Shown: piece after piece, positions 62,100-62,540 of the stretch
Layout: every line of letters starts with the position of its first letter
Numbering within the stretch: position 1 is the first letter of the stretch
Origin: a virus
Virus record (IMG/VR): IMGVR_UViG_3300049728_000159
Coordinates: 123,059 to 187,058 of that record
Direction: 5' to 3' (one strand)
Length of the DNA stretch: 64,000 nucleotides
The notes under the pieces: generated by a model
What the model was told of the DNA's origin: nothing
The model's database searches: none
Seen by the model: the letters and a program-made list of their open reading frames with translations, nothing else
Translations under genes and position numbers: made by a program

Positions 62100-62540
62100 A
62101 TTCACTCGTCAAGGTGAGATCTGTACAGGAGACTTCCCATGCGCGATGGCTATTTCTTTGGTGACGATTTCTAGCTGCCTAACGAGCAGCTAATCAGTGG
62201 AGCGAGAACTCGCTGCGGAGGTATTTGTATGCAGCAGCAGGAGAGGGTGATCCGGGAGGGAGCAATCCCTCCCCGACCCTAGAAGCAAAACAAGGCGTTG
62301 CACCACGCCTATCACCCACAGGAAATACTTAAAACCACGAAGTGGAGTGGTCTCTCATGGACATTGACGGATGCCAGAATCTTGAGAGTTGGAGAAGGGC
62401 GACTGACTCCACCCAAATTTCAGGAGATGTCTATCTCCTAACGAGGGTGAGGGCTGCGGCCTGTCGCAAGACAGAACTGTCTGGGAGCGGATCGGGTGGG
62501 ACGACGCCCAGATGGCCCGCAGCCTGATTCCCACTTGAAT
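62100..62540 (+). ncRNA. Highly structured non-coding region, candidate large RNA
   Basis: About 440 nt without a credible gene but with many perfect stems: AGCTGC/GCAGCT, AGCGAG/CTCGCT, GGGAGGGA GCAA TCCCTCCC (GNRA loop) nested in AGGGT/ACCCT, AGGCGT/ACGCCT, CTCTCA/TGAGAG, AGGAGAT GTCT ATCTCCT, CTGTC GCAA GACAG (GNRA loop), and GGGCTGCGGCC pairing with GGCCCGCAGCC (about 62450 with 62514). An 11-codon frame (MRDGYFFGDDF, 62150) with a CAGGAG site begins it. The density of GNRA-capped hairpins and a long-range closing stem fit a large ornate RNA. No known class was recognised. Confidence 0.5.

Follow-up and report, generated by a model that had tools for sequence, protein, structure and literature searches.

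The stretch at 62098-62548 (+ strand) of a soil phage genome is non-coding and hairpin-rich, and its predicted fold makes it a good and credible candidate for a new large structured phage RNA, confined to one known viral species. We give a probability of roughly 40% to the reading that this element is a phage-encoded folded RNA domain, about 450 nt long and acting as RNA itself. All positions refer to the window, the 64,000-nucleotide stretch of DNA analysed here, which makes up the final 64 kb of an IMG/VR virus record 187 kb long. The idea of a large structured non-coding RNA at this place came from an earlier note on the same DNA; the absence of coding signal, the hairpin excess, the fold of a second strain (L005, IMGVR 3300014168_000013), the tRNA and tmRNA setting and the lack of any Rfam match give it partial support.

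The limits of the element are taken from its closing stem (62098..62548, +). It fills a gene-free gap of about 470 nt (62067-62538) that separates two + strand ORFs, in agreement with the roughly 440 nt without a gene that had first drawn attention to the locus:

61830..62066, + strand: 78-aa ORF upstream of the element; its protein is identical in L005
62539..62715, + strand: 58-aa ORF (54 aa from the start at 62551) with gene-like codon usage; its protein is identical in the other strains
62722..62741, + strand: terminator-like hairpin after the 58-aa ORF; the strains part at 62745

A codon-usage model trained on 19 long ORFs, which themselves score about 0.13-0.18 (minimum, mean), assigns +0.25 per codon to the 58-aa ORF and +0.10 to the 78-aa ORF; ORFs within the element score about 0 or negative, the best reaching +0.06 per codon. 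Six-frame products of the element have zero matches in PHROGs, and at E<=0.1 no Pfam match falls on the element, the single sub-threshold match (E 0.05) being to the downstream 58-aa ORF. Between the window and L005 the element differs by five transitions and three 1-nt deletions (alignment read by eye), and a 1-nt deletion shifts the frame starting at 62229. On the strength of codon usage, the PHROGs and Pfam results and this frameshift we conclude with good confidence that the stretch is non-coding. An 11-codon leader frame previously noticed at its start is present (ATG 62139, with AGGAG at 62127-62131 seven bases ahead), but it is not a fixed feature because its AGGAG is disrupted in L005. 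The promoter-like sequence described alongside it was not recovered, as a sigma-70 scan of 61700-63000 gave no promoter-like site; scanning the same interval revealed no terminator at the 3′ end of the element.

Hairpins are in marked excess over chance. Seven perfect non-overlapping stems of at least 5 bp lie in 446 nt, compared with a mean of 2.6 in shuffled sequences, and this count is reached by 4 of 300 shuffles and by 1 of 318 overlapping segments of the window. The element is the highest in hairpin count, and since the scanned segments overlap, the one that reaches seven probably coincides with the element. Stems of at least 7 bp number three, against 0.2 expected. The original description gave at least eight perfect hairpins; under the definition used here there are seven. 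The minimum free energy of the element has a z-score of -3.9, with no shuffle folding as well, or -3.2 with another shuffle set. When segments across the window are scanned, the element (z -3.6) ranks fifth of 142; the first tRNA cluster accounts for the top two, and the third-ranked segment is mostly coding (z -5.1). Because the element ranks only fifth and a mostly coding segment reaches -5.1, we treat z alone as weak evidence. In L005 the element has a z-score of -4.5, again with no shuffle folding as well, and its centroid is nearly the minimum free energy structure. Ensemble diversity there is 0.091 per base versus 0.248 in shuffles, a value as low being found in 0 of 100 shuffles and 1 of 142 window segments. 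The window strain has an ensemble diversity at shuffle level, and its own fold is loosely defined. Converting the window sequence to that of L005 makes the fold 7.6 kcal/mol more stable, a gain matched by 10 of 600 randomised sets of these changes; the reverse comparison, from L005 to window, is unremarkable (424 of 600 random sets) and not informative.

The element is predicted to fold into a closed multi-branched structure with one closing stem and about eight arms, several of which would stack end to end. Helices are given in window numbering, and figures are predicted pairing probabilities:

62098..62113, + strand: 5′ strand of closing stem P1, pairing with 62534-62548 (0.66-0.69; 0.65-0.76 in L005)
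62534..62548, + strand: 3′ strand of P1, covering GGUGAU at 62541-62546, which is probably the Shine-Dalgarno of the 58-aa ORF
62116..62171, + strand: P2 arm, overlapping the 11-codon frame (62139-62174); L005 differs here by a substitution and two deletions of 1 nt
62172..62192, + strand: P3 hairpin UAGCUGC/GCAGCUA, abutting P2 (0.96)
62197..62319, + strand: P4 domain GUGG-A-GCGA/UCRCCCAC with three inner arms
62254..62273, + strand: 8-bp hairpin GGGAGGGA-GCAA-UCCCUCCC (0.97); its loop is GUA in L005
62293..62310, + strand: hairpin AGGCGU/ACGCCU (0.95)
62334..62351, + strand: P5 hairpin ACCAC/GUGGU (0.80)
62352..62388, + strand: P6 arm CUCUCA/UGAGAG, abutting P5; an inner U-G becomes C-G in L005
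62390..62421, + strand: P7 arm, pairing differently in the two strains
62422..62439, + strand: P8 hairpin AGGAGAU-GUCU-AUCUCCU, abutting P7 (0.96)
62445..62532, + strand: P9 domain GGGCUGCGG/CCGCAGCCU, enclosing a CUGUC-GCAA-GACAG hairpin and a CUGUCUGGG/CCCAGAUGG arm

Two architectural features in the initial description recur in this prediction: the long-range closing stem, with a pairing probability of about 0.67, and both GCAA loops (62262-62265 and 62466-62469), although the loops are not both fixed features because one reads GUA in L005. Within P9 the inner helices reach 0.83-0.96 and the outer GGG/CCC 0.61. In the L005 fold P2/P3, P5/P6 and P7/P8 adjoin without an unpaired base between them, which would allow end-to-end stacking, and the outer helix of P4 is fully paired. 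The window version has most helices in common with L005, but it carries one C-A mismatch in that P4 helix (62203/62314) and has a loose ensemble. An alternative fold drawn by hand, with long-range stems AGGUAUUU/AAAUACUU and GGGUGAU/AUCACCC, was rejected, being less stable than the predicted one by 4.7 kcal/mol.

Four records span this locus, and each retains the element: the window's own, IMGVR 3300049729_000226, 3300037196_000543 and L005. The second and third are identical to the window over the element and L005 is 98.4% identical, leaving two distinct sequences in the collections searched, both from one viral species. Seven aligned pairs differ between window and L005, four in the deletion-affected arm and three as clear one-sided substitutions, two of which place C opposite A when the window strain is given the L005 fold. 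With two distinct sequences and no two-sided compensatory change between them, we claim no comparative support. At the nucleotide level the element varies more than its two flanking ORFs (8 changes versus about 1). Viral scans, genome scans and blastn, including back-translated probes from the element's translations, returned copies only in the same species, and covariance models of two domains run over 27 records found the known copies only. Scans with the PAPS reductase and helicase reached other phages, and the element is absent from those examined.

Several weak matches were inspected and set aside. A covariance-model match in XacN1 (E 0.05) falls inside annotated genes, blastn against phages gave matches of only 36-47 bases that we take as chance, a match in phiHau3 sits in a short gap ahead of an integrase gene, and a 15-base match in G008 lies within a 1124-codon ORF. 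Tunturi_5 holds an exact 16-base match, ACAGGAAATACTTAAA (E 0.13), inside a 410-base gap. Much of this gap can be read as a small reverse ORF missing from the annotation, the stretch folds weakly (z -1.6), and the motif occurs once in Tunturi_5, once in the window, in none of seven other relatives and not in XacN1; for these reasons we also regard the Tunturi_5 match as chance rather than homology. The nearest annotated relative found for the helicase protein of the window phage is in Tunturi_5 (37.5% identity), a jumbo phage with a cultured acidobacterial host (PMC11924767), and the phage that carries the element is apparently related to jumbo phages of acidobacteria.

All strains share a conserved module at about 61807-62745, with variable flanks on both sides. 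Four GIY-YIG-like homing endonuclease ORFs occur in the window (49552-50307, 51203-51850, 52861-53514 and 61269-61817; Pfam confirms two, and the other two were recognised by eye), and the last of these, left of the module, is swapped in L005 for a different GIY-YIG-like ORF at the same site. After 62745 the right flank differs between strains, comprising a PAPS-reductase remnant in the window and the tmRNA side in L005. The remnant (62744-63247) is a PAPS-reductase-like gene reduced to its C-terminal half (profile 271-420 of 460); L003 has its full-length 290-aa relative. Downstream of the element in L005 is a permuted tmRNA (4368-4753; RF04321 above cut-off), a separate gene with the tag AEPYALPMAA (ARAGORN); in 3300037196_000543 a permuted tmRNA lies further downstream than in L005, and the window's own record has no tmRNA match. 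The permuted tmRNA genes found in these phages include one in G006 (about 14306-14626) and one in Tunturi_5 (PP885688.1, 157899-158195), both with RF04321 above cut-off; the latter is not annotated in PP885688.1, and the word 'tmRNA' is absent from the main text of the paper (PMC11924767). A tRNA cluster (58521-59124) stands about 3 kb upstream of the element and, with the tmRNA neighbourhood, gives a setting like the tRNA-island position reported for GOLLD and ROOL (PMC12286853).

We favour a stand-alone RNA because of the length of the element, the number of its arms and this tRNA and tmRNA setting. It would be transcribed from the + strand, probably jointly with the 58-aa gene, and the folded RNA may act in infection as a scaffold or host-interaction RNA, in the manner suggested by GOLLD and ROOL, and not via a peptide. 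The absence of a terminator at the end of the element tips the balance the other way, towards a cis-acting leader: the 58-aa gene would have the element as its 5′ untranslated region, with the closing stem hiding the Shine-Dalgarno and keeping translation off until a ligand, a protein or ribosomes translating small upstream frames open the fold. GGUGAU, complementary to the 3′ end of 16S rRNA, sits 4 bases before AUG 62551 within the closing stem and is 0.01-0.09 unpaired in L005, no terminator intervenes between the element and the 58-aa ORF, which is instead followed by a terminator-like hairpin, and that ORF has gene-like codon usage. However, 450 nt is very long for a leader of this kind, the small upstream frame's ribosome site is lost in L005, the Shine-Dalgarno is just partly covered in the window strain (0.2-0.55 unpaired) and it is paired even after removal of the element's 5′ part; given these last two observations, the closing stem is not clearly the controller. 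We hold a leader to be possible but somewhat doubtful; the missing terminator and the closing stem over the ribosome-binding site nevertheless make it nearly as plausible as a stand-alone RNA, and the two are hard to tell apart.

Somewhat unlikely, too, but a serious possibility, is a stretch with no RNA function, a spacer or remnant of repeated insertions and deletions in a recombination-prone region that folds well by chance. The differing homing endonuclease genes upstream, the downstream PAPS-reductase remnant of the window and the other right flank elsewhere fit such a history, as do the fifth rank in the segment scan with a coding segment folding better, the greater variability of the element relative to its flanking ORFs and the lack of compensatory change between the two sequences. 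Chance folding accounts poorly, however, for a hairpin excess essentially unmatched within the window, for a definition of the L005 fold that no shuffle reached and for retention of the element in every record that covers the place. A decayed or very short protein gene in place of an RNA is very improbable: small frames have good ribosome sites (AGGAG before ATG 62139, GGAGG before ATG 62229), but the internal ORFs show neither codon-usage signal nor PHROGs or Pfam match and the 62229 frame is shifted between strains.

A second well-folding stretch lies elsewhere in the window. At 30380-30930 (+), just upstream of the first tRNA cluster, about 550 gene-poor nucleotides fold better than the main element (z -5.0), contain two identical 21-nt direct repeats and have no Rfam match of their own at E<=10; L012 retains the stretch, about 96% identical and shortened by an internal deletion of some 130 nt (z -4.9). 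Nearby, between intact tRNAs, 31025-31176 holds one or two apparent tRNA gene remnants, with one sub-threshold tRNA match at 31025-31089. A broader reading, in which the main element would represent a new class of large ornate phage RNA, sequence-unrelated to GOLLD and ROOL, in a lineage related to acidobacterial jumbo phages, and 30380-30930 a second, different large RNA, we consider unlikely.

To our knowledge, just a few large orphan phage RNAs are known and their roles are unresolved; some form RNA cages, as seen by cryo-EM. If the stand-alone reading is true, an independent large phage RNA would provide a comparative test of the features common to such RNAs; at present the element is an isolated candidate from one species with a predicted fold.

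Searched against Rfam, as the earlier note had proposed, the element matches no family even at E<=10, among them tmRNA and RNase P RNA. Group I and group II introns are likewise unmatched at E<=10, and no split gene was found across the element, whose flanking ORFs stop at 62066 and start at 62539. A MITE or other repeated mobile element was rejected, the element being single copy in the 187-kb record. The note's failure to match GOLLD or ROOL holds at both the gathering score and E<=10. ROOL (Rumen-Originating, Ornate, Large) RNAs are large, many-armed, non-coding and phage-borne, often by tRNA islands (PMC12286853). The element shares each of these traits, including a position near a tRNA island, which alone does not define the family; it differs in being followed by a gene, with no terminator of its own, and is known here from its sequence and predicted fold. 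GOLLD is a large multi-branched phage RNA by tRNAs whose expression goes up in phage lysis (PMC12286853). The element is likewise multi-branched in prediction, phage-borne and near tRNAs, but GOLLD members often run to more than 800 nt and share a 3′ region conserved in all of them, whereas the element is about 450 nt and does not match the Rfam model that includes this region. Translation-control leaders that hide a ribosome-binding site offer a third comparison, since the closing stem here takes in the likely Shine-Dalgarno of the 58-aa gene; the element is far longer, matches no ligand-binding family and has a stem whose control is unclear in the window strain. By analogy, the element may at most resemble GOLLD and ROOL in its working, and it is a member of neither.
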